From Phycisphaera sp. (GTDB lineage Bacteria; Planctomycetota; Phycisphaerae; Phycisphaerales; UBA1924): a stretch of 64,000 nucleotides of DNA. Positions 49,575-60,841 of this stretch are shown piece by piece; within the stretch, counting starts at the first letter, position 1; the number at the start of each line of letters is the position of its first letter. Position numbers and translations under genes: made by a program. The stretch lies in contig CP098402.1 in assembly GCA_025916675.1 (NCBI GenBank), positions 553,205 to 617,204 of the forward strand. The letters run 5' to 3'. The notes beneath the pieces were generated by a model, which saw only the letters and a program-made list of their open reading frames with translations, was not told the origin of the DNA and made no database searches.

Positions 49575-52500
49575 CTACTCCATGTCGTCCATCACGGCCT
49601 TCACCGCCGCCTCGAGTTGCGGGTCGACACCCTCAACCTCGTGGCCGGGGTTAACCTCAACGAGCACGTCGGGCACGGCACCGTTGTTCTCCATGTCGGT
49701 GCCGTCGGGCAGGTACCAGCCGCGGAAGGGCCGGCGGACCGTCGTCCCATCGATGAGCCGGTACGACCCGGTCGAGATGACCGCGCCGTAGGTCTCCTGG
49801 CCCACCAGCGGCCCGCGTTCGGTGGTCTTGATGGCGTGCGAGAAGATCTCGGCGTTCGAGTACGAATTCTCGTTGCACAACACCGCGATCGGGCGTGAGT
49901 AGCCGTAGATCAGCCGGCGATCACGCGGGTAGGCATCCTGGGGGACGTCGTCGGGGTTGGCCCCGCGCGGGATGGTGTAGGCGTGGCGTGGCGCCGTGAG
50001 CGAGCTGAGCAGGATGTCGGTGGTCCAGCCACCGCCGTTGTCGCGGACGTCGATGAGCAGGCCGTCCTTGCCGCTCGCCGCGGCGTACAGATCACGCTCA
50101 AAATCGCGCAGCGAGGGCTCGTTCATGCCGCGGATGTGCAGGTAGCCCACGCGCCCGCCCGACAGCTCCTCGACCTTGGCGCGGCGCTGGCGAACGCCGT
50201 CCTCGTACCGCAGGCCGCTATCGCCGCCCGAAGAAGTCGGCACGATGAGCACGTACGCGGATCCTGTCGGGTCTGCGGGCACGATGTCGAGCAGGGTTTC
50301 CTCGCCCGACGTGCCGGCCATCGCTTCGCTCAGGTCCACCGTCGGCATCCCACCCTCGGGGGCCAGCGGCGTGCCGTTGATAGCGATGATCACGTCGCCC
50401 TCGTGGAGCTTGCTCGTGTCACGCCACGCCGGGCCTTCGGGCAGCACGTACGTGACTTCGTAGCCGCGTGCCACGGGCTTGGCGTCGATGCCCAGGTACC
50501 CGGTGCGGATTGCCGGTGCGTCGTAGAGCTGCGTGCCGCCCCAGATGCCCAGGTGCGAGCCGTTGAGCTCGCCCATCAGCAGCCGACCGACCTGGTAGAA
50601 CTCGCTGGGCGTGCGTGTCACGCGCGCCAGCTCCAGATACCGCTCGGTCAGGCCGTCCCAATTCAGGCCCTTCATCGTGGGGTGGTAGAACTCGCGGCCG
50701 AGCATGTTGGCCGCGTCGCGGAACTTCTGGGCCTGCTCGGCGGCCACGTCGATGCGGACCGTCGCGTCGATGCCCAGCGTGTTGGCCCCGCCGCCGGTGG
50801 GCTTGGCCGTCGCCGCCTGCCCGCCGCGGATGAACACGGCCTTCGAGCCATCGGGCGTCACGTGCACCTGTGATACGCCGCCGCTCTGCACGGTCTTGCG
50901 GTCCTGCCCCTGGTAGTCGACCGAGAACAGGCTGGTGCTGCCGTCGATGTTGGTGCTGAACAGCACGCGGTCGCCGCCGGGCGTGAGCGCGAGGTTGCCG
51001 ACTCCGCTGAAGCCCGTCAGTCGACGCACGCGCTGCCACGCGTCCTCGGTGTCGAATTCCAGCGGCTCGCGATCGGCCGGCTCGTCCAAATCGGGCGTGT
51101 CGATCTTGCCCTGCTTGCCCACTGCCTTGGCGGCGTCCTTGAAGTACTGGGCGAGTTCGTAGTCGGTCTTACCCTCAAGAGAGCGGTCGAGTAGCACTGC
51201 GTACGCGTCGTACGACCAGTTGTTGCCCGCGCGATCGCTCAGGAACACCAGCATCTTGCCGTCGTGGCTCAGCCGCGGGGATGTATCGATATCCGGGTGC
51301 CGCGTGATGTTCACCGGCTCGGCGTCCTGGCCGTCCAGGTCCAGCAGCCACACGTCGGCGTTGAAGTCCAGGTCGGCCACCTCGTAGACGATGTGGCGGC
51401 TGTCGGACGCCCATTGCACGTCGGGTTCGTTCCAGCTCTCGAAGACGAGCGTGTCCTGACCGCTGGCCAGGTCGCGCATCCACAGGTCGCCCCGCTCGCG
51501 GACGTACAGCAGGCGGTAGCCGTCAGGCGATGGCATGGGCTCGACCGTCCGCTCGTCGCTCTCGATGAACGGTTCAACCTCGAAGCGCAGCGCGTCGGAC
51601 CAGCGTTTGCCGTGATCGATCTTGTCTTCTTCGTCTTTCTTCTCGGATTCATCCTCGCCGCCGTCTTCGGGCTGCTCTTCGCCATCGCCATCGCCATCGC
51701 TCTCGGCTTCGGTCGCTTGGTCCTCGCCCTCGGTAGGCTCTTCGGCGTCAGCGTCTTCCTCGGTGGCCTCGGGTTCTTCTTCCTCCGGCTCTTCGGGCAT
51801 GATGTCCTCACGCGCGAGGCTCACCATGGCGCGGTAAATGGCGAACTCGCCGTCCTCGTCGCTCGAGAAGTACAGGTACTGGTTGTCGGGGCTCCAGGCG
51901 ATGTCCTGCTCTCGCCCGCTGGTGAAGGTCACGCGGCGGGTGGGTCGGTCGTCCTCGGTGTTGCGGATGAACACCTCGCCTCGCGCCACCACGGCCAGGG
52001 TCTTGCCATCCGGGCTCAGGGCCGCCTCGCTCACCTGGCGGTCGAGGGTCTCGAGCCGAGTGTCGAGCGTCTGGCTGTCGCCCGAGGCGTAGATCTCCAC
52101 GGACTCGGGTGTTGCGCCCCGCTGGGTCAGGTCGAGCGTGTACAGCGTATCCCAAACCAGGAATACGGCCGTCGACCCATCGTCGGACAGGTTCAGATCG
52201 AGCACGCCGTGGCCGATCGTGTGTTCGCCCTCCTCGGGTGCAAAATTGGTCACGCGGCGCAGCCCGTCCGCATCGGTGCGGCCGGCGGGGATGCGCCAGA
52301 TGTTGTTCTGGCCGTGGCGGCTCGAGACGTAAATGGTCGATCCGTCGGGAAGGCCGAACGCGTTGGCATCGTTGCCATCGAAGTTGGTCAGTTGCTCGAA
52401 TCGGCCCGTCTCGGTGTCCATCTCCCAGACCTCGCCGGCGGCGGGGCCCTGATAGGCCGGGCGGTCGTACAGGTCGCGTTGCCGGGTGAACAGCACGCGC

Positions 52501-53159
52501 GAGCCGTCGGCGGTCATCCGCGGCATCAGGCCATAGGCATCGGTGAGGCGTGTAATGGCGCTCCCATCGAGCGGCACGCGATACATGTTGGTTCCGCGGT
52601 ACATGCCCGGCTCGAGCCTCGCCTGTACCAGCACCGCGTCGCCCGCCGCGTCGAAGCCCGAGAGCGTGAGCGAGCGATCGCTCAGCGTGATGCGGCGGAC
52701 GGCGCCACCGACCACACGGCCGCCATCGGTCGAGACCGGCATGGCGTACAGGTTTGTCGAGCCGTCGCGCGTGGACGTGAACACCAGCGTCGAACCATCC
52801 GGGCTGAACGCGCTGCGCAGGTCGTCGGCTGGATGCGTGGTCAGGCGCGAGGCAACGCCGCCCCCGGCGCTCACGGCCCACAGGTCGCCCGCCCACGTGA
52901 ACGCGATGGTCGAGCCATCGGGGCTCAGGCTCGGCATGCGCGGGTAACCCACGCGGGATTGCTCGGCCATCCAAGCCGCCGACGCCATGCCCGAGCGAGC
53001 AGCAGACTCGTCACCCGCCCGGCTGCTCGAAAGCGACGAATCGGGCGAGGTGGTGGCGCTGCTCGCGCAGGCCATCTGGAGCGAGGCGGTGCCCGCGGCC
53101 AGCGCCATGGCGAACGCCGCCGACACGCGGCACCTTCCTGAGAGGTCGAACCCTGGCAT
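49575..53159 (-). CDS. Tricorn-like S41 family peptidase, secreted
   Basis: Large exported protease of about 1194 residues. Signal region MALAAGTASLQMACASSA with a Cys at the end of the hydrophobic part, possibly an atypical lipobox. Order: two beta-propeller regions with TolB-like repeats (PSLSPDGSTIAFTWAGDLW, SAFSPDGSTLVFTSTRDG, LLYVRERGDLWMRD); between them an extreme acidic stretch of about 65 residues near 475-540; a PDZ-like domain (HEGDVIIAINGTPLAPEGG); and the C-terminal S41 catalytic domain (GGRVGYLHIRGMNEP, LLIDVRDNGGGWTTD, nucleophile Ser in CNENSYSNAEIFSHA, then GAVISTGSYRLIDGT). Matches the plan of tricorn protease, which trims peptides; here it would act outside the cytoplasm. 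Confidence 0.9.
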   Translation of the reverse strand: MPGFDLSGRCRVSAAFAMALAAGTASLQMACASSATTSPDSSLSSSRAGDESAARSGMASAAWMAEQSRVGYPRMPSLSPDGSTIAFTWAGDLWAVSAGGGVASRLTTHPADDLRSAFSPDGSTLVFTSTRDGSTNLYAMPVSTDGGRVVGGAVRRITLSDRSLTLSGFDAAGDAVLVQARLEPGMYRGTNMYRVPLDGSAITRLTDAYGLMPRMTADGSRVLFTRQRDLYDRPAYQGPAAGEVWEMDTETGRFEQLTNFDGNDANAFGLPDGSTIYVSSRHGQNNIWRIPAGRTDADGLRRVTNFAPEEGEHTIGHGVLDLNLSDDGSTAVFLVWDTLYTLDLTQRGATPESVEIYASGDSQTLDTRLETLDRQVSEAALSPDGKTLAVVARGEVFIRNTEDDRPTRRVTFTSGREQDIAWSPDNQYLYFSSDEDGEFAIYRAMVSLAREDIMPEEPEEEEPEATEEDADAEEPTEGEDQATEAESDGDGDGEEQPEDGGEDESEKKDEEDKIDHGKRWSDALRFEVEPFIESDERTVEPMPSPDGYRLLYVRERGDLWMRDLASGQDTLVFESWNEPDVQWASDSRHIVYEVADLDFNADVWLLDLDGQDAEPVNITRHPDIDTSPRLSHDGKMLVFLSDRAGNNWSYDAYAVLLDRSLEGKTDYELAQYFKDAAKAVGKQGKIDTPDLDEPADREPLEFDTEDAWQRVRRLTGFSGVGNLALTPGGDRVLFSTNIDGSTSLFSVDYQGQDRKTVQSGGVSQVHVTPDGSKAVFIRGGQAATAKPTGGGANTLGIDATVRIDVAAEQAQKFRDAANMLGREFYHPTMKGLNWDGLTERYLELARVTRTPSEFYQVGRLLMGELNGSHLGIWGGTQLYDAPAIRTGYLGIDAKPVARGYEVTYVLPEGPAWRDTSKLHEGDVIIAINGTPLAPEGGMPTVDLSEAMAGTSGEETLLDIVPADPTGSAYVLIVPTSSGGDSGLRYEDGVRQRRAKVEELSGGRVGYLHIRGMNEPSLRDFERDLYAAASGKDGLLIDVRDNGGGWTTDILLSSLTAPRHAYTIPRGANPDDVPQDAYPRDRRLIYGYSRPIAVLCNENSYSNAEIFSHAIKTTERGPLVGQETYGAVISTGSYRLIDGTTVRRPFRGWYLPDGTDMENNGAVPDVLVEVNPGHEVEGVDPQLEAAVKAVMDDME

Positions 53160-53366
53160 GGCTGGTCTCCTGATATCGAGGGCCCTAATCGGCCCGATTG
53201 GGTCGTATGCGCGAGCCACATGGCCGCCTCAGGCAGCCAAAGTAGGGCACGCCTGACAGGTACAGACTACAGCGTCTGATGCGCTGGGTCTAGCGATCTG
53301 TCGTCCGGGCGAGGGGTTGCCCGCCTCGATCGAGTGCTTGTTGGGTGATGGGTTGGGTCGCGGGCG

Positions 53367-54796: not shown

Positions 54797-56002
54797 ATGC
54801 CGCGACGCGCCGCTGTTATCTGTGCCCTGCGAACCCCGGTCGGCCGATTCGGCGGGGCCCTGGCTGGCGTTCGACCCGATGACTTGGCCGCCCACGCCAT
54901 CAAGGCGGTGGTCAAACAATCGGGCATCGATCCGGCCACCATCGATGATGTCTACTTCGGCGCGGCCAACCAAGCCGGCGAGGACAACCGCAACGTCGCA
55001 CGCATGGCCGTATTGCTCGCGGGGCTGCCGACGAGTGTTCCAGGATCCACCATCAACCGGCTGTGCGCGTCGGGGCTCGACGCGATCAACATCGCCGCCC
55101 GCATGATCGAGGCCGACCACGGCGACGTGTTCATCGCCGGCGGTGTCGAATCGATGAGCCGGGCACCATACGTGCTCAGCAAGCCCGACACGGCCTACGC
55201 ACGCAACCAGGAGATGCACGACACCTCCATTGGCTGGCGCTTCGTGAACCCGAAGCTTTCTGAACTCCACCATCCCTACGCGATGGGCGAGACCGCCGAG
55301 AACGTCGCGCGGCAGCACAAGATCAGCCGGGAGGATCAGGACACGTTCGCGCTGTCGAGCCAGCAGAGGTGGGCCGCCGCCCACGAGCAGGGGCTGTTCA
55401 AGGACGAGATCATGCCGATTCGGATCCCCCAGCGCAAGGGCGAGCCGATGGTATTCGACACCGACGAGCACCCGCGGCCGGACACGACGCTCGAGAAGCT
55501 CGCCAAGCTGCGACCCGTGTTCGCCAAAGACGACCAGGGCACCGTGACGGCGGGCAACTCATCGAGCATCAACGACGGCGCGGCCGCGCTCTTGCTCGTC
55601 GAGGAGGGCCGAGCCAAGGCGTTGGGCCTCGAGCCGCTGGCATTCGTGGGCCCGAGCGCCGCGGTCGGCGTCGATCCGGCCTACATGGGCATCGGCCCGG
55701 TGCCCGCCATCCGCAAGGCCCTCGATCGCGCCAAACTCTCGCTCTCCGACATCGGCCTCGTCGAATTGAACGAGGCTTTCGCGGCCCAGTCGGTCGCGTG
55801 CGCTCGGGAATTGGACATCCCAAGCGAGAAGCTGAACGTGAAGGGCGGAGCGATCGCCATCGGCCACCCGCTCGGCTGCAGCGGTGCTCGGCTGGCGACC
55901 ACGCTACTCCACGAGATGGTGCGCACCGGCACGACACACGGCATGGCTTCGCTTTGCGTGGGTGTTGGTCAGGGGCTGGCGACGACTTTCGAGCGGGCCT
56001 GA
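54797..56002 (+). CDS. Acetyl-CoA acyltransferase (thiolase)
   Basis: 401-residue thiolase of the degradative type. Catalytic residues: nucleophile Cys in INRLCASGLDA near residue 91, His in GGAIAIGHPLGCSGAR near 356 and the second Cys in SLCVGVGQGLA near 386; NEAFAAQ is present. Similar proteins are annotated as 3-oxoadipyl-CoA thiolase or acetyl-CoA acetyltransferase, and the sequence alone does not decide. It faces the CoA-transferase operon tail to tail (stops 2 bp apart), which fits cleavage of acetoacetyl-CoA or 3-oxoadipyl-CoA formed there. Confidence 0.9.
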   Translation: MPRRAAVICALRTPVGRFGGALAGVRPDDLAAHAIKAVVKQSGIDPATIDDVYFGAANQAGEDNRNVARMAVLLAGLPTSVPGSTINRLCASGLDAINIAARMIEADHGDVFIAGGVESMSRAPYVLSKPDTAYARNQEMHDTSIGWRFVNPKLSELHHPYAMGETAENVARQHKISREDQDTFALSSQQRWAAAHEQGLFKDEIMPIRIPQRKGEPMVFDTDEHPRPDTTLEKLAKLRPVFAKDDQGTVTAGNSSSINDGAAALLLVEEGRAKALGLEPLAFVGPSAAVGVDPAYMGIGPVPAIRKALDRAKLSLSDIGLVELNEAFAAQSVACARELDIPSEKLNVKGGAIAIGHPLGCSGARLATTLLHEMVRTGTTHGMASLCVGVGQGLATTFERA

Positions 56003-56004
56003 AT

Positions 56005-57327
56005 TCAGACGCTCACTGCCATCTTCTCGAATCCGCGCTCGAAAGCGCCAACCAACTCATCGATCTCGGCCTCAGTCATCGGCGTTGAGAGCGTGGCCGA
56101 GCACGTGTTGATGAGGATGAACCCCTCGTCGAACATGTACTCGAGCAAGGCCTTGAGACGGGAATTCTCTTCCGGCGTGAGGTAGGCCTCGCGGAAGTTT
56201 CGCGGCGGCTGTGGCTTCATATGCACGCGGAACATCGAACCGCTTCCGGTCACACACACCGGCACGCCCGCTTGCCGGGCCGCTGTGTCGATGCCCTTCA
56301 TGGCACGAGCGGCCAACGCGTTGAGGCGAGCCACCGCGGGCTCGTCGAACAGCTCCATCGCGACCAGGCCGGCCGTCGTGCTGATAGGATTGGCCGAGAA
56401 GGTGCCCGAATGCGGGTAGAGCACACGCTTGGCGCGCGGATTGAGCACTTCCATGACTTCCGAGCGGCCGACCACCGCGCCTACCGGAAAGCCGCCGCCG
56501 ATCATCTTGCCGATGGCGGTCAGGTCGGGCGTGATGTCGTATCGCGATTGCAGCCCGCCGTGCTCGGTGCGGAAGGTGATGACCTCGTCGAGCACGAGCA
56601 GCGAGCCGTGCTTCGTGGCCCACTCGCGGATCGCCGCCACGAATTCCGGGTCCGCCGGCCGCAGCCCGACACGGTGGGGCATCAGGTCGAGCAGCACGCA
56701 CGCAAGTTCATCTGCGTGCTTGTTCAGGATCGCGATCGCGCGCTCGGGGTCGTTGAACGGGATAATGACCACGTCGCCGAGCGCCGACCCGGGCGTGCCG
56801 TGCGCGAGGGCGACGCTGTTGGGCTGGTCGATCTCGCCCCATGTGTCGGGATTCGGCGCCTGGCTCACCTCGGCGTAGTCGTACCCGCCGTGGTAGGCGC
56901 CCTCGACCTTGGCGATCTTGGGCCGCCCCGTGTACGCCCGCGCCGCCTTGAGCGACACCATCAACGCTTCGGTGCCCGAGTTCACGAACCGCAGCTTCTC
57001 GAAGTTCGGGTTCCGCCCCACCAGATGCTCGGCGTATCGCACCTCAACCTCGGTGGCCGTCGTAAATGCCGACCCACGAGCGAGCTGCGCGGTCACCGCT
57101 TCGACAATCGCCGGGCACGCGTGGCCGTGGATGAGCGAGGCCATGTTGTTCGAGAAGTCCAGCCGCGTCACGCCCTCGATGTCGGTGATCCGGCAGCCCA
57201 CACCATGGTCGGCGTACACGGGATGCGGATCGCGCAGCACGGTGTTGCGGCTGACGCCGCCAGGCAAAACTCTCTGGGCTCGTTCGTAGAGTTCGGCGCT
57301 ACGTGTGGTCTGGGAAGGCGTGCTCAT
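56005..57327 (-). CDS. Class III aminotransferase / glutamate-1-semialdehyde aminomutase-like
   Basis: 440-residue PLP enzyme of the GSA aminomutase group. N-terminal LPGGVSRNTVLRDPHP, FVNSGTEALMVSLKAARAYT with the cofactor loop, KVEGAYHGGYDYAEVS, the pyridine-ring Asp in LVLDEVITFR near residue 230, and the Schiff-base Lys in TAIGKMIGGGFPVGAV near 258. In true HemL the region is more conserved and here the N-terminal part is longer, so an amino-acid-like omega-aminotransferase or aminomutase is more likely. Last gene of the KamA-CoA-transferase operon (10 bp after the B subunit), suggesting it acts on an amino-acyl intermediate of the same route. Confidence 0.85.
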   Translation of the reverse strand: MSTPSQTTRSAELYERAQRVLPGGVSRNTVLRDPHPVYADHGVGCRITDIEGVTRLDFSNNMASLIHGHACPAIVEAVTAQLARGSAFTTATEVEVRYAEHLVGRNPNFEKLRFVNSGTEALMVSLKAARAYTGRPKIAKVEGAYHGGYDYAEVSQAPNPDTWGEIDQPNSVALAHGTPGSALGDVVIIPFNDPERAIAILNKHADELACVLLDLMPHRVGLRPADPEFVAAIREWATKHGSLLVLDEVITFRTEHGGLQSRYDITPDLTAIGKMIGGGFPVGAVVGRSEVMEVLNPRAKRVLYPHSGTFSANPISTTAGLVAMELFDEPAVARLNALAARAMKGIDTAARQAGVPVCVTGSGSMFRVHMKPQPPRNFREAYLTPEENSRLKALLEYMFDEGFILINTCSATLSTPMTEAEIDELVGAFERGFEKMAVSV

Positions 57328-57337
57328 CGGGTATCAC

Positions 57338-58000
57338 TCACTCTTGGATCGGCAGCAGTGGGGCACCGGTGCGCTGCTGGACGTCGCCGAACCCAACACC
57401 CGGGCTCAACTCGACCAGCCGGAACCCCTCGGGTGTCACGTCGATGACCGCAAGATCGGTGTAGATGCGGTCGATCACGCGCCGGCCCGTCAGCGGATAG
57501 GTGCAATCCTCGACCAGCTTGGGCTCGCCTTGCTTCGTGCAATGCTGCGTGATGACGTAGACCTTCTTGACGCCCGCCACAAGGTCCATCGCGCCGCCGA
57601 CGGCGGGGATCGCGCCGGGCTCGCCCGTCGACCAATTCGCCAGATCACCGTTCTGGGAGACCTGCATCGCGCCCAGCACGCACAGGTCGATATGCCCGCC
57701 GCGGATCATCGCGAAGCTGTCGGCGTGGTGGAAGTAAGCCGCCCCGGGGATGGCCGTCACGTGCCGCTTGCCGGCGTTGATGAGTTCGGGGTCGCCAGCG
57801 CCCTCTTCGGGCGAGGGACCCATGCCCAGCAGGCCGTTCTCGGTGTGGTAAATCAGCGTGCGGCCCTCGGGCACGAACCGCGCGACGAGTTCGGGGATGC
57901 CGATGCCAAGATTGACATACGACCCATTGGGAATGTCGAGCGCGAGCCGTTGGGCCATCTCTTCCCGCGTGCGTCCGGCGAGTTGCTCGGTCTGGGTCAT
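57338..58000 (-). CDS. 3-oxoacid CoA-transferase subunit B
   Basis: 220-residue beta subunit with the catalytic Glu in YHTENGLLGMGPSPEEG near residue 53 and conserved GSYVNLGIGIPEL, GGHIDLCVLGAMQVSQNGDL. Covers ScoB (succinyl-CoA:acetoacetate) and PcaJ (3-oxoadipate) types; the text does not separate them. Overlaps subunit A by 4 bp. Converts a 3-oxoacid to its CoA ester, the step before the nearby thiolase. Confidence 0.92.
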   Translation of the reverse strand: MTQTEQLAGRTREEMAQRLALDIPNGSYVNLGIGIPELVARFVPEGRTLIYHTENGLLGMGPSPEEGAGDPELINAGKRHVTAIPGAAYFHHADSFAMIRGGHIDLCVLGAMQVSQNGDLANWSTGEPGAIPAVGGAMDLVAGVKKVYVITQHCTKQGEPKLVEDCTYPLTGRRVIDRIYTDLAVIDVTPEGFRLVELSPGVGFGDVQQRTGAPLLPIQE

Positions 58001-58707
58001 GGGTACGTCTCCCCGGCGGCGACTAATTCCGATTCATGCACGGGATTCGCCACCGCGACGACGCGCTCCACGAACAACCCCGGCGTCACGACAACCTCAG
58101 GATCAATCCCGCCAGGCTCGACGACGCGTTCTGCTTGCACGATCGCAACCTTCGCCGCCATCGCCATGATCGGGCCGAAGTTGCGCGCGGTCTTGTTGTA
58201 CACGATGTTGCCATACGTATCGGCGGTGCGCCCCTTGATCAACGCGAAGTCGGCCTTCAATCCGCGCTCGAGCACGAACTCCTGCCCCTCGAACTCTCGC
58301 GTTTCTTTCCCATCGGCCAGCGGCGTGCCCACCGCGGCAGGAGTGTAGAACGCCGGGATGCCCGCCCCACCCGCGCGGATGCGTTCGGCCAGCGTGCCCT
58401 GCGGTACAAGCTCGAGCGTGGTCTTGCCGCTGCGGTAGAGTTCGGGGAACACCGTCGAGTTGGCGGTCCGTGGAAACGAACAGACCACCTTCGACACCCG
58501 CCCGGCCTTGAGCAGCGCAGCCAACCCGACCTCGCCGCTGCCGGTGTTGTTGCTGACGACCGTGAGGTCGGTCGCGCCCTGGTCGATCAGCGCGTGGATC
58601 AGCTCGATCGGGCTGCCAGCCTCACCGAACCCGCCGACCATCACCGTCGCACCATCGAAGACATCAGCCACGGCCTCGGCCGGGCTCGAGACCTGTTTGT
58701 TGATCAT
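57997..58707 (-). CDS. 3-oxoacid CoA-transferase subunit A
   Basis: 236-residue alpha subunit: GATVMVGGFGEAGSPIELI near residue 20, the loop GGAGIPAFYTPAAVGT and DFALIKGRTADTYGNIVYNK near 170, which are typical. Starts 9 bp after the kamA-like stop and overlaps subunit B by 4 bp. Works only as a heteromer with B. Confidence 0.92.
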   Translation of the reverse strand: MINKQVSSPAEAVADVFDGATVMVGGFGEAGSPIELIHALIDQGATDLTVVSNNTGSGEVGLAALLKAGRVSKVVCSFPRTANSTVFPELYRSGKTTLELVPQGTLAERIRAGGAGIPAFYTPAAVGTPLADGKETREFEGQEFVLERGLKADFALIKGRTADTYGNIVYNKTARNFGPIMAMAAKVAIVQAERVVEPGGIDPEVVVTPGLFVERVVAVANPVHESELVAAGETYP

Positions 58708-58715
58708 CGGATTGC

Positions 58716-60137
58716 TCAGGTGGCCGCGAGGCTCGGGTTGGTCACGCGCGAGTATTCGTACAGCCCCGCCTCGTCAAACAGCACCCGATCGTCGTAGCCG
58801 TCGAACCACACCGCGTCGGGGTTGCGGCCGACAATGCACACCTTGCCACGCTCTGGAGCGCTGCCAGCGTTGCGGAGCAGTTTGAAGATGACCACGCCGT
58901 TCTCGCTGCCCGCCAGGCCCGGGATGGGCTCGTTGGTGACGGCGACCACCTCGGTCTTGCCCTTGTAGTGCGTGATCGACAGGCGGGCGTGGTTCTCGAC
59001 GCCCGACAAGCCCTTCTGCGACTCGTTGAGGATGCGCCAAGCCTCCTCGATCGGGATGTTGAACGCCTTGTACGCCACGATGTCGCGGCCGCAAAAGAAA
59101 TAGTGGTTGTCGGCACCCACACGCTTCATCTCTCGCTGCATGATGCGGATCGCGTCGGGGTCGTCGTTGATGTCACGGATGATGGGCGTCTGGTTCTCAA
59201 CGGTGATCCAGCCGCGGTCGAGCAGCCCGCGCATCGCTACGCCGGTGTCGGGCACCCACTGGTAGATGCCGTGCTCGCCGCGTAAATACTCGCCGTCCTC
59301 GCCCTTGGCCAGAAACTCGTCGGGATGCTCGAAGTGGACCATCATGTGCAGGCCGACCTCGGGATACGCCTCGTGGAAGTCGTCGAGCATCGCGAGGAAC
59401 GTCGGGTCGAACCGCTTGGGGTAGAACGCCATCTCCTTCGTGCCGATCCGGATCGACTCGATCCCCGCCTCGGCCAGCGCCGCCAGCCACGCGGCGAGCT
59501 TGGAATTGTTCAGCACCATCGGGTCGCCGCCCGAGAGCAGAATCTCGCGCAGCTTCTCGCGACCAGACTCGGGGTGCACGCCACCGTTGGCGGCCACCTT
59601 GGCGTTGAAGTCGCGGATGTACGCCGTGATCTCGGGGATTTTGGCCAGCCCCTTCTTGGCCACCGTGCCGTCCTGGCGGGCGACCTCCTTGCGGGCGATC
59701 AACTCCTCGCGATAGCAGAAGCGGCAGTGCGCCGAGCACGTCGAGACGACGTACATCAGCCCCATCTCGTACTTGTGCAGCAGCCCCTCAACCGGGCTGT
59801 AGTCCATCTGGTTGCCGGGGTCTTCTGAGCCGGCCAGGTCGGTGGTCTCGTCGGGGCTGGCCTTCACCAGCCGCTGGATGGCCGGGCTGGTCTTGGCGAG
59901 TTCGAAGAAGTGCCGCGTGATCTTGACGGGCATCCGCTTCTCGACGTCGCGATCGGTGCCCTTGAGCCCGCCCAACTGCACGAGCTCCTCGGTGCTGTAG
60001 AGCCCGCGCATGTCGTCGGGCACCTTGTCGCCGATGAACGGGGCCAGCCCGTTGATGATCTCACGTTTGTACTGGGTGTCCTCGACCTTGTCGAGAAAGG
60101 CTTGTTCCTTCTCGGTCGGGGTGTAATCCTGAGGCAT
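58716..60137 (-). CDS. KamA-family radical SAM aminomutase-like enzyme
   Basis: 473 residues. The radical SAM cluster motif CSAHCRFC is in VVSTCSAHCRFCYREEL near residue 137, and LLSGGDPMVLNN and EDGEYLRGEHGIYQWVPDTG-type segments give the lysine 2,3-aminomutase family. In clostridial KamA the PLP lysine lies in PGGGGK; here the aligned segment reads ITHYKGKTEV near residue 400. The Lys can be matched, but the Asp before that motif, which holds the epsilon-amino group of lysine, appears lost. The substrate may not be lysine. First gene of an operon with the CoA-transferase subunits and the aminotransferase. ATG 60137 has a GGAG box. Confidence 0.85.
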   Translation of the reverse strand: MPQDYTPTEKEQAFLDKVEDTQYKREIINGLAPFIGDKVPDDMRGLYSTEELVQLGGLKGTDRDVEKRMPVKITRHFFELAKTSPAIQRLVKASPDETTDLAGSEDPGNQMDYSPVEGLLHKYEMGLMYVVSTCSAHCRFCYREELIARKEVARQDGTVAKKGLAKIPEITAYIRDFNAKVAANGGVHPESGREKLREILLSGGDPMVLNNSKLAAWLAALAEAGIESIRIGTKEMAFYPKRFDPTFLAMLDDFHEAYPEVGLHMMVHFEHPDEFLAKGEDGEYLRGEHGIYQWVPDTGVAMRGLLDRGWITVENQTPIIRDINDDPDAIRIMQREMKRVGADNHYFFCGRDIVAYKAFNIPIEEAWRILNESQKGLSGVENHARLSITHYKGKTEVVAVTNEPIPGLAGSENGVVIFKLLRNAGSAPERGKVCIVGRNPDAVWFDGYDDRVLFDEAGLYEYSRVTNPSLAAT

Positions 60138-60307: not shown

Positions 60308-60345
60308 GGGGCGGTAACTCAACTGGTAGAGTGCCAGCCTTGCAA
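60308..60345 (+). pseudogene. 5' half of tRNA-Ala (anticodon TGC), truncated
   Basis: Matches positions 1-38 of a tRNA: GGGGCGG acceptor strand, TA, D-stem ACTC/GAGT with an AACTGGTA loop, G26, CCAGC and the anticodon loop CTTGCAA. Directly after it the expected GCTGG is replaced by ATTGTTGG and no T-arm (TTCGA) or 3' acceptor follows within the next 100 bases. The break lies at the 3' edge of the anticodon loop. Confidence 0.7.
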
Positions 60346-60841
60346 ATTGTTGGCGAGATAGGCGTGTCCTCTGGAATCTGGCTTGTGAGGCCATGAGCGC
60401 CGTTTGCACTACTCAATACGGGTTGAACCATCGTCCCACTTAGTCCCTATTCGACCGCAAAGTAGTGCAAAGATTTTTGTTGGTACGGCCGAAGTCGGCG
60501 GGCAGTCGGGCTGCTCAAGGCGTCTAGATCAGACACGGCGGACTGCGACGGTAACTCGCAGCAAGTCTTGCAGTCCAGCACGAATTGTCTGTGAAATGGT
60601 AAAGGCACTATCCACGCGTCGCTGTTGGCATCTACGGAATGTGAGTGTTGGGGCTCGACGTTCCATTGCGTGTTAAGAACGCGGCGCTTCCGGGCAGCGT
60701 TCTCGGCGGCCTGATTTTCTGAGTAGGAATGGTCCTTTTGGTTTACTGCCCCGGAACAGGTATCGCTGCAATCGGTGATGGATCGCGCCATGCCGCCCCG
60801 GGCATGCTGGGGGGCTCTTTGGTGCGGCTCTTCACACCGAG
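60346..60841. other. Lower-GC non-coding region beyond the broken tRNA
   Basis: About 500 bases nearer 50% GC with only short open frames on both strands, none resembling a known protein. It contains the 11-bp inverted repeat and otherwise nothing I can assign. Confidence 0.5.
60403..60471. repeat. 11-bp perfect inverted repeat
   Basis: TTTGCACTACT (60403-60413) and its exact complement AGTAGTGCAAA (60461-60471), 47 bp apart. Starts 57 bp after the broken tRNA. Could be paired protein-binding sites, for example recombinase arm sites, but no recombinase gene is adjacent. Confidence 0.6.

Follow-up and report, generated by a model that had tools for sequence, protein, structure and literature searches.

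The window analysed here is a 64,000-nucleotide stretch of the Phycisphaera sp. contig CP098402.1 (positions 553,205 to 617,204), and its subject is a KamA-like gene together with the operon to which it belongs. The gene, on the minus strand at 58716..60137, where the original prediction had correctly placed it, encodes a 473-residue protein (P0001). Its CxxxCxxC motif, residues R143, R351 and K394 and VIA-align match to 2a5h suggest a radical S-adenosylmethionine (SAM)/pyridoxal phosphate (PLP) 2,3-aminomutase, for which we propose L-2-aminoadipate as substrate. Downstream on the same strand lie genes for the A and B subunits of a 3-oxoacid coenzyme A (CoA)-transferase of PcaI and PcaJ type (CtfA, 57997..58707; CtfB, 57338..58000) and for a HemL-like class III aminotransferase (56005..57327), a proposed 3-aminoadipate transaminase. 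A PcaF-like thiolase gene, whose product is a proposed 3-oxoadipyl-CoA thiolase, sits tail to tail with the operon on the plus strand (54797..56002). Together these genes point to an undescribed degradation of 2-aminoadipate, a product of lysine.

P0001 is a KamA-family radical SAM protein on a deep branch. Its top NCBIfam match is TIGR00238, the KamA family, at 88.4 bits against a cut-off of 199.2, and the models for aminomutases of lysine, glutamate and arginine give 71–80 bits against cut-offs of 525–650; every NCBIfam cut-off was missed. A Pfam scan of P0001 returned no match at E 0.001, and at that threshold lysine 2,3-aminomutase 2a5h was its sole sequence relative in the PDB. An AlphaFold model of P0001, built from 55 sequences of which the other members are 74–84% identical to the window protein, aligned to 2a5h by VIA-align with Z 25.4 over 304 residues at 3.6 Å, the next fold reaching Z 11.8. 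This comparison establishes a KamA fold at 18–19% identity in the structure alignments. Because the cluster region of the model is poor, we make no claim about pocket geometry, and the residue swaps described below depend on sequence profiles.

The aminomutase had been predicted to share an operon with an oxoacid CoA-transferase and a class III aminotransferase, and this operon was indeed found, with its order conserved across loci. We confirmed 160 relatives in genome contigs and studied the best 80 of them. Wherever these loci had enough flank, the aminomutase was followed on the same strand by CtfA (78/78), then CtfB (73/73), then the HemL-like aminotransferase (69/69), and a thiolase adjoined the operon on the opposite strand in 46 of 61. 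Of 392 genomes sampled from the window's phylum, a close ortholog (E no higher than 3e-178) is present in 22, and 12 further genomes have distant matches alone; in 20 of the 22, CtfA and CtfB follow the aminomutase on the same strand. Three sampled genomes of the window's own genus are without a close ortholog. A plasmid of Mesorhizobium sp. 113-3-3 (L128) encodes a 68% ortholog of P0001 that its annotation calls a hypothetical protein. Behind this gene come those for ferredoxin FdxA, a HemL-like aminotransferase and, in place of PcaIJ, another CoA-transferase. The beta subunit of that CoA-transferase has glutaconate CoA-transferase as its nearest PDB entry; the alpha subunit is not in the gene table, which is incomplete, and an open reading frame at its site matches a CoA-transferase family.

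Substrate-side residues of the aminomutase

Residues were counted in pairwise tblastn alignments with 102 close homologs, 68–94% identical to P0001 (L002–L022, L031–L110 and L128). The motifs CSAHCRFC and LLSGGDP, said to be intact in the original prediction, are both present, and the cluster cysteines C134, C138 and C141 are kept in all 101 homologs that cover them, as is the carboxylate arginine R143 (KamA R134; 101/101). The PLP lysine survives, as had been expected, with K394 (KamA K337) being Lys in 102 of 102 homologs; S387, H390 and R351 are likewise invariant as Ser, His and Arg (102/102 each). The replacement of the PGGGGK signature by HYKGKTEV was confirmed, the GK end alone being retained. 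Across the 102 homologs SITHY-(K/R/L)-GK stands where KamA has PGGGGK, and in the window the segment SITHYKGKTEV (residues 387–397; 58947..58979, minus strand, checked by translation) takes the place of DAPGGGGKTPV, with K394 as the presumed PLP lysine.

We take KamA D293 and D330 to grip the epsilon-ammonium of lysine and R134 to hold its carboxylate. The original prediction had one substrate-gripping Asp replaced by a neutral residue, and KamA D330 does correspond to S387, seven positions upstream of K394, in a register set by counting from K394 = KamA K337 and not by structure. A further substrate-side Asp, absent from that prediction, has also gone: R351 stands opposite KamA D293 in gap-free alignments, both in the PDB profile search by hmmsearch and by hhalign. 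R351 lies in the segment HYFFCGRDIV (residues 345–354; 59076..59105, minus strand, checked by translation). The alignment of P0001 with KamA therefore leaves neither the Asp nor the PGGGGK signature intact, and the lysine epsilon-ammonium site appears, from the aligned residues, to have reversed its charge. Because both lysine-site Asp are lost (D293 to Arg, D330 to Ser), lysine is disfavoured as the substrate of P0001. In the same comparison KamA R112 is matched by K122 of P0001, and R116 by M125. By count, D331 of the Bacillus subtilis enzyme is the equivalent of KamA D330. An excerpt of a review (PMC9850924) describes D331G in B. subtilis lysine aminomutase as the key change for alanine 2,3-aminomutase activity.

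Set against known enzymes, P0001 resembles KamA/AblA (2a5h; TIGR03820) in its fold, CxxxCxxC motif and the pairs R143/R134 and K394/K337, and differs from it in the PGGGGK loop and both Asp positions, with only 71 bits to TIGR03820 against a cut-off of 525. Clostridium glutamate 2,3-aminomutase presumably has Lys at the D293 site, and a planctomycete homolog of glutamate type (L117:1252-2595, plus strand), scoring 570 bits with the glutamate model (cut-off 650) and 421 with the lysine model, has Lys there and a neutral Thr at the D330 site. P0001 is like glutamate 2,3-aminomutase (TIGR04368) in having a basic and a neutral residue at these two sites, but carries Arg instead of Lys and scores 71.9 bits with TIGR04368, whose cut-off is 650; L117 also has a more KamA-like loop, LPKSRGK, and the tree places it among the canonical KamA proteins. 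In L117, the sole comparison available, a basic residue at the position of D293 would thus accompany an acidic substrate.

Closer to P0001 is a KamA-like clade of Planctomycetota (L023–L030; for example L023:1447-2658, minus strand, assigned by tree and residue alignment), which shares with it the Arg at the D293 site, SHxxGK for PGGGGK and a common C-terminal segment. This clade joins the P0001 family with support of 100/100, on long branches; its members have open frames of 383–553 residues and are 26–39% identical to P0001, depending on the aligned part and the method. The short flanks of L023–L030 gave no match to any of the four partner genes.

Partner enzymes and a predicted route from 2-aminoadipate

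CtfA scores 343.5 bits with TIGR02429 (cut-off 128.5) and CtfB 299.5 bits with TIGR02428 (cut-off 243.55), and the thiolase has TIGR02430 (pcaF) as its best model, at 567.9 bits, under the cut-off of 597. Trees establish the kinship of CtfA and CtfB with the Pca proteins and suggest it for the thiolase. CtfA groups with PcaI of eight plasmid loci and a Tistrella protein (support 100/99), with ScoA/AtoD and four non-pca loci falling outside this group; CtfB groups with PcaJ (100/100); and the thiolase groups with PcaF and a Thermus thiolase (92/95, a node that is not starred), in separate clades. Identities agree, at 55–63% between the window CtfA and Pca proteins versus 43–52% for non-pca proteins, and at 52–57% between the window thiolase and PcaF versus 42–45%. 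By tree grouping, CtfA and CtfB are a PcaI/PcaJ-type CoA-transferase with a predicted activity on 3-oxoadipate. All eight PcaI reference loci adjoin pcaF, two of them (L133 and L137) necessarily, having come from the thiolase search, and seven also adjoin other pca, cat or pob genes. Among seven plasmid CtfA relatives (55–69% identical, from the CtfA match lists) six adjoin pcaF; the seventh and nearest, from Tistrella mobilis (68.6%), lies in a lysine/2-aminoadipate gene context.

In this Tistrella stretch (L132; plasmid pTM2, 1-7391), a GcvA-type regulator separates the PcaIJ-like pair from genes for an aminotransferase, a 2-oxoadipate dioxygenase/decarboxylase (94 bits with Pfam HGLS) and an L-piperidine-6-carboxylate dehydrogenase (798 bits against a cut-off of 730). 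No aminomutase was found between positions 1 and 7391.

The operon resembles the beta-ketoadipate pathway in that its CtfA, CtfB and thiolase fall with PcaI, PcaJ and PcaF, but here the Pca-like genes accompany an aminomutase and a transaminase. Protocatechuate 3,4-dioxygenase was found above cut-off in none of the 22 ortholog-bearing genomes; catechol 1,2-dioxygenase was not searched for. With no pcaH above cut-off in these genomes, aromatic degradation through the protocatechuate branch is disfavoured as the explanation of the PcaIJF-like genes, and if the CoA-transferase does act on 3-oxoadipate, another origin for that compound is probable.

The closest PDB entry to the HemL-like aminotransferase is 6k8h (391.7 bits), which is StoTA, a Sphaerobacter beta-amino-acid transaminase whose substrates, in an excerpt of PMC10589169, include beta-leucine and beta-homoalanine. 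The presumed carboxylate arginine of StoTA, R36, aligns with R27 of the window enzyme, and the PLP-lysine segments of the two enzymes align at GK as well. A comparable enzyme is Kat, the HemL-like 3-aminobutyryl-CoA aminotransferase of KamA–KamDE lysine fermentation, for which thioesters are the only substrates according to an excerpt of PMC3149608. Kat and StoTA are like the window enzyme in being HemL-like or related class III aminotransferases acting on beta-amino acids or CoA esters, and Kat would by analogy be a precedent for a HemL-like transaminase in an aminomutase pathway. However, Kat serves lysine fermentation, and the neighbours of P0001 are unlike the lysine fermentation gene set described in that excerpt (PMC3149608).

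A second point of comparison is the Bacillus yodT-S-R-Q-P-kamA group, in which we take the gene for KamA to stand with those for a class III aminotransferase, two CoA-transferase subunits, an acetyltransferase and a deacylase. It differs from the window operon in having a true lysine KamA, and YodT is called BioA-like in an excerpt of PMC6522883.

From these comparisons we infer both the substrate and the order of the steps. In the aminomutase, R143 would hold the alpha-carboxylate, K394 would carry PLP and R351 would hold the distal carboxylate of 2-aminoadipate, at the position of the lysine epsilon-ammonium, so as to convert L-2-aminoadipate to 3-aminoadipate. The HemL-like enzyme would transaminate 3-aminoadipate to 3-oxoadipate, the PcaIJ-type CoA-transferase would pass CoA to it from succinyl-CoA, and the resulting 3-oxoadipyl-CoA would be cleaved by the PcaF-like thiolase to succinyl-CoA and acetyl-CoA, thereby regenerating the CoA donor. 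If one transamination of the aminomutase product is to yield 3-oxoadipate, the starting substrate must be 2-aminoadipate. This compound is lysine with a carboxylate replacing the epsilon-ammonium carbon, and so has the length of lysine and the opposite charge exactly where D293 became Arg. The earlier suggestion of a beta-amino acid pathway, perhaps with a starting substrate other than lysine, is therefore supported, by comparison, through the loss of both Asp and the nature of the partner enzymes.

We consider it likely that P0001 is a radical SAM aminomutase for some dicarboxylic amino acid. That it is a radical SAM/PLP 2,3-aminomutase of L-2-aminoadipate in particular, feeding a 3-oxoadipate route, we put forward tentatively, judging it nearly even whether this holds. 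The fuller proposal is slightly more doubtful again: that a new L-2-aminoadipate 2,3-aminomutase evolved by charge reversal in a KamA-like enzyme and opens a new terminal lysine/2-aminoadipate route via 3-aminoadipate into the lower beta-ketoadipate pathway, spread over Planctomycetota and other groups, with a related cluster in Mesorhizobium. Enzymes of this type are already known; for the proposed substrate and route we found no published account among openly licensed PMC papers. No 3-aminoadipate route was found in these papers, and in an excerpt of PMC9854754 the term 'beta-aminoadipic acid' occurs once, inside a reference title.

If the proposal is true, one Asp-to-Arg swap has shifted a radical SAM aminomutase from lysine to the isosteric diacid, and amino-acid carbon also enters the beta-ketoadipate pathway, whose established role is with aromatic compounds. 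It would likewise provide a route for lysine-derived carbon together with an enzyme that produces 3-aminoadipate, and would assign a function to a family that lies under the NCBIfam cut-offs and whose member on a rhizobial plasmid is annotated as hypothetical.

Possible source of 2-aminoadipate and alternative explanations

That lysine is the source of 2-aminoadipate is something we infer from the gene content of the ortholog-bearing genomes. Lysine 6-transaminase was found above cut-off in 13 of the 22, a count made in these genomes only. Genes similar to lysine 6-dehydrogenase, searched for with a query whose nearest PDB entry is 3abi (PH1688), which we take to be L-lysine 6-dehydrogenase, occur at E 1e-70 in 9 of 22 of them versus 31 of 370 other genomes (Fisher p 9e-5, kinship ignored) and at E 1e-50 in 9 of 22 versus 47 of 370 (p 0.0015, kinship ignored). 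One or the other candidate for lysine epsilon-deamination is present in 17 of the 22. Called genes near 14 lysine-6-transaminase loci gave no match to three aldehyde dehydrogenase references at E 1e-20. The domain PF16653 was also tried as a marker of lysine catabolism and failed; it includes carboxynorspermidine-synthase-like proteins.

Several observations weigh against a route from lysine through 2-aminoadipate. The window's own genome, 99.97% complete, has no lysine 6-transaminase above cut-off and no lysine-6-dehydrogenase-like gene, and the saccharopine/lysine dehydrogenase C-domain is absent from it too; four more of the 22 genomes have neither type of epsilon-deaminating enzyme, and the operon itself shows no gene for turning lysine into aminoadipate. 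The count of lysine 6-transaminase covers ortholog-bearing genomes only. The query for lysine 6-dehydrogenase came from G380, itself one of the 22 genomes, a choice that could tilt the result towards an association, and the association is weak inside the order (5/9 versus 4/22, p 0.08). PF16653 shows none (12/22 versus 193/392 overall). The CtfA and thiolase of the operon branch as clades separate from the adjacent Pca ones and may differ from them in substrate, and the Thermus thiolase, whose gene adjoins one of the benzoate-CoA-ligase family, is 58.3% identical to the window thiolase, slightly above any PcaF compared. Two of the 22 genomes have intradiol-type matches under the cut-off (113.8 and 44.5 bits), and the catechol branch of aromatic breakdown lay outside the pcaH search. 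An adjoining thiolase is missing in 15 of the 61 loci assessed among the best 80, CtfA is divergent in one of the 22 phylum genomes (L017), and in another (L016) the 1.5-kb flank holds no CtfA. Finally, the AlphaFold model has a mean predicted local distance difference test (pLDDT) score of 71.5 and is weak around the cluster loop.

The main rival has P0001 acting as a glutamate 2,3-aminomutase, with 3-aminoglutarate passing to 3-oxoglutarate or its CoA ester and on, either by cleavage to malonyl-CoA and acetyl-CoA or by decarboxylation to acetoacetyl-CoA and two acetyl-CoA. L117 likewise has a basic residue at the D293 site, glutamate is plentiful in all cells, and no source of 2-aminoadipate was seen in the window's genome. 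We nevertheless regard this rival as unlikely: kinship with PcaI, PcaJ and PcaF indicates the C6 compound 3-oxoadipate, 17 of the 22 genomes hold the epsilon-deamination candidates described above, the site in P0001 is occupied by Arg instead of Lys, and its score with the glutamate model falls far short (72 bits, cut-off 650). For either diacid the steps could also run in another order, with CoA first transferred to the free beta-amino acid and the CoA ester then transaminated by the HemL-like enzyme, in the manner of Kat. This order, which we hold improbable to a like degree, matches the run of the genes (aminomutase, CoA-transferase, aminotransferase) and the restriction of Kat to thioesters (excerpt of PMC3149608). 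However, CtfAB belongs among the 3-oxoacid CoA-transferases, so that action after transamination is more natural, and the presumed carboxylate arginine R36 of StoTA, a free-acid transaminase, is retained as R27, in a comparison that covered StoTA and not the Kat sequence.

A neutral substrate is a much fainter prospect, for example leucine, converted to beta-leucine and through the 3-oxoacyl-CoA to isobutyryl-CoA and acetyl-CoA. StoTA, the nearest solved aminotransferase, takes beta-leucine and beta-homoalanine (excerpt of PMC10589169), and changing D331, the D330 equivalent, was the key to alanine 2,3-aminomutase activity in lysine aminomutases (excerpt of PMC9850924); against this, an invariant Arg in the side-chain site fits a neutral side chain poorly, and both the PcaIJ/PcaF kinship and the glutaconate-type CoA-transferase subunit of Mesorhizobium favour dicarboxylates. 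Hardly more probable, and in our view very unlikely, is that lysine is still bound through an altered pocket or that P0001 is some other radical SAM/PLP enzyme, such as a radical deaminase. The PLP motif has indeed been rebuilt, and K122 and M125 stand in place of KamA R112 and R116; yet P0001 retains the KamA fold and cluster, together with the PLP Lys and the carboxylate Arg, both lysine-binding Asp are lost, and the beta-transaminase-like and 3-oxoacid CoA-transferase partners suit a beta-amino-acid product.

Distribution and neighbouring features

By record title, 59 of the best 80 loci come from Phycisphaera, Phycisphaeraceae, Phycisphaerales or Phycisphaerae, 14 bear other Planctomycet- names and seven have other titles (Spartobacteria twice, Chthoniobacterales, Alphaproteobacteria, Acidobacteria, Actinobacteria and one plain bacterium), labels that may err where they belong to bins. 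A scan of viral contigs confirmed no relative of P0001. The Spartobacteria/Chthoniobacterales loci have a second thiolase, of PRK06289 type by family scan, divergently upstream of the operon (L077:6264-7496, L079:6382-7611 and L106:3329-4594, all minus strand), which is above cut-off in L079 alone. A BREX defence system lies close to the Mesorhizobium ortholog, whose plasmid was typed as conjugative.

Just upstream of the aminomutase, a divergent RpiR-family regulator was seen in 27 of 81 regions (the 80 loci plus the window), for example L034:944-1792 (minus strand); the members in L034 and L098 were confirmed by family scans, the window is not in this cluster, and many regions have a short upstream flank. 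Such a recurrent regulator says little about the substrate. Neighbour clusters resembling ABC transporters and kinases, from 7 and 8 loci, proved by eye to be mixtures of unrelated proteins.

A longer, 571-residue frame for the aminomutase (to 60431) was dropped, as homology begins at residues 1–5 of the 473-residue form in 79 of the 80 loci; in the remaining one, L049, it starts from residue 12, at the very end of the contig. The extra stretch of this frame overlaps an antisense tRNA-like segment below the family threshold (60308-60438, plus strand; Rfam tRNA 20.8 bits, gathering score 29). On reading, this segment has a good 5' half and anticodon stem, matching acceptor ends and a long insertion; ARAGORN reported nothing in it, with introns allowed or not, and among the loci outside the window's genome L031 alone matches, over the first 38 bases. 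Also near the locus, at 49575-53219 on the minus strand, is a gene for a 1214-residue Tricorn-type protease with matches to a WD40-like propeller, Tricorn C1, PDZ and S41 peptidase domains.

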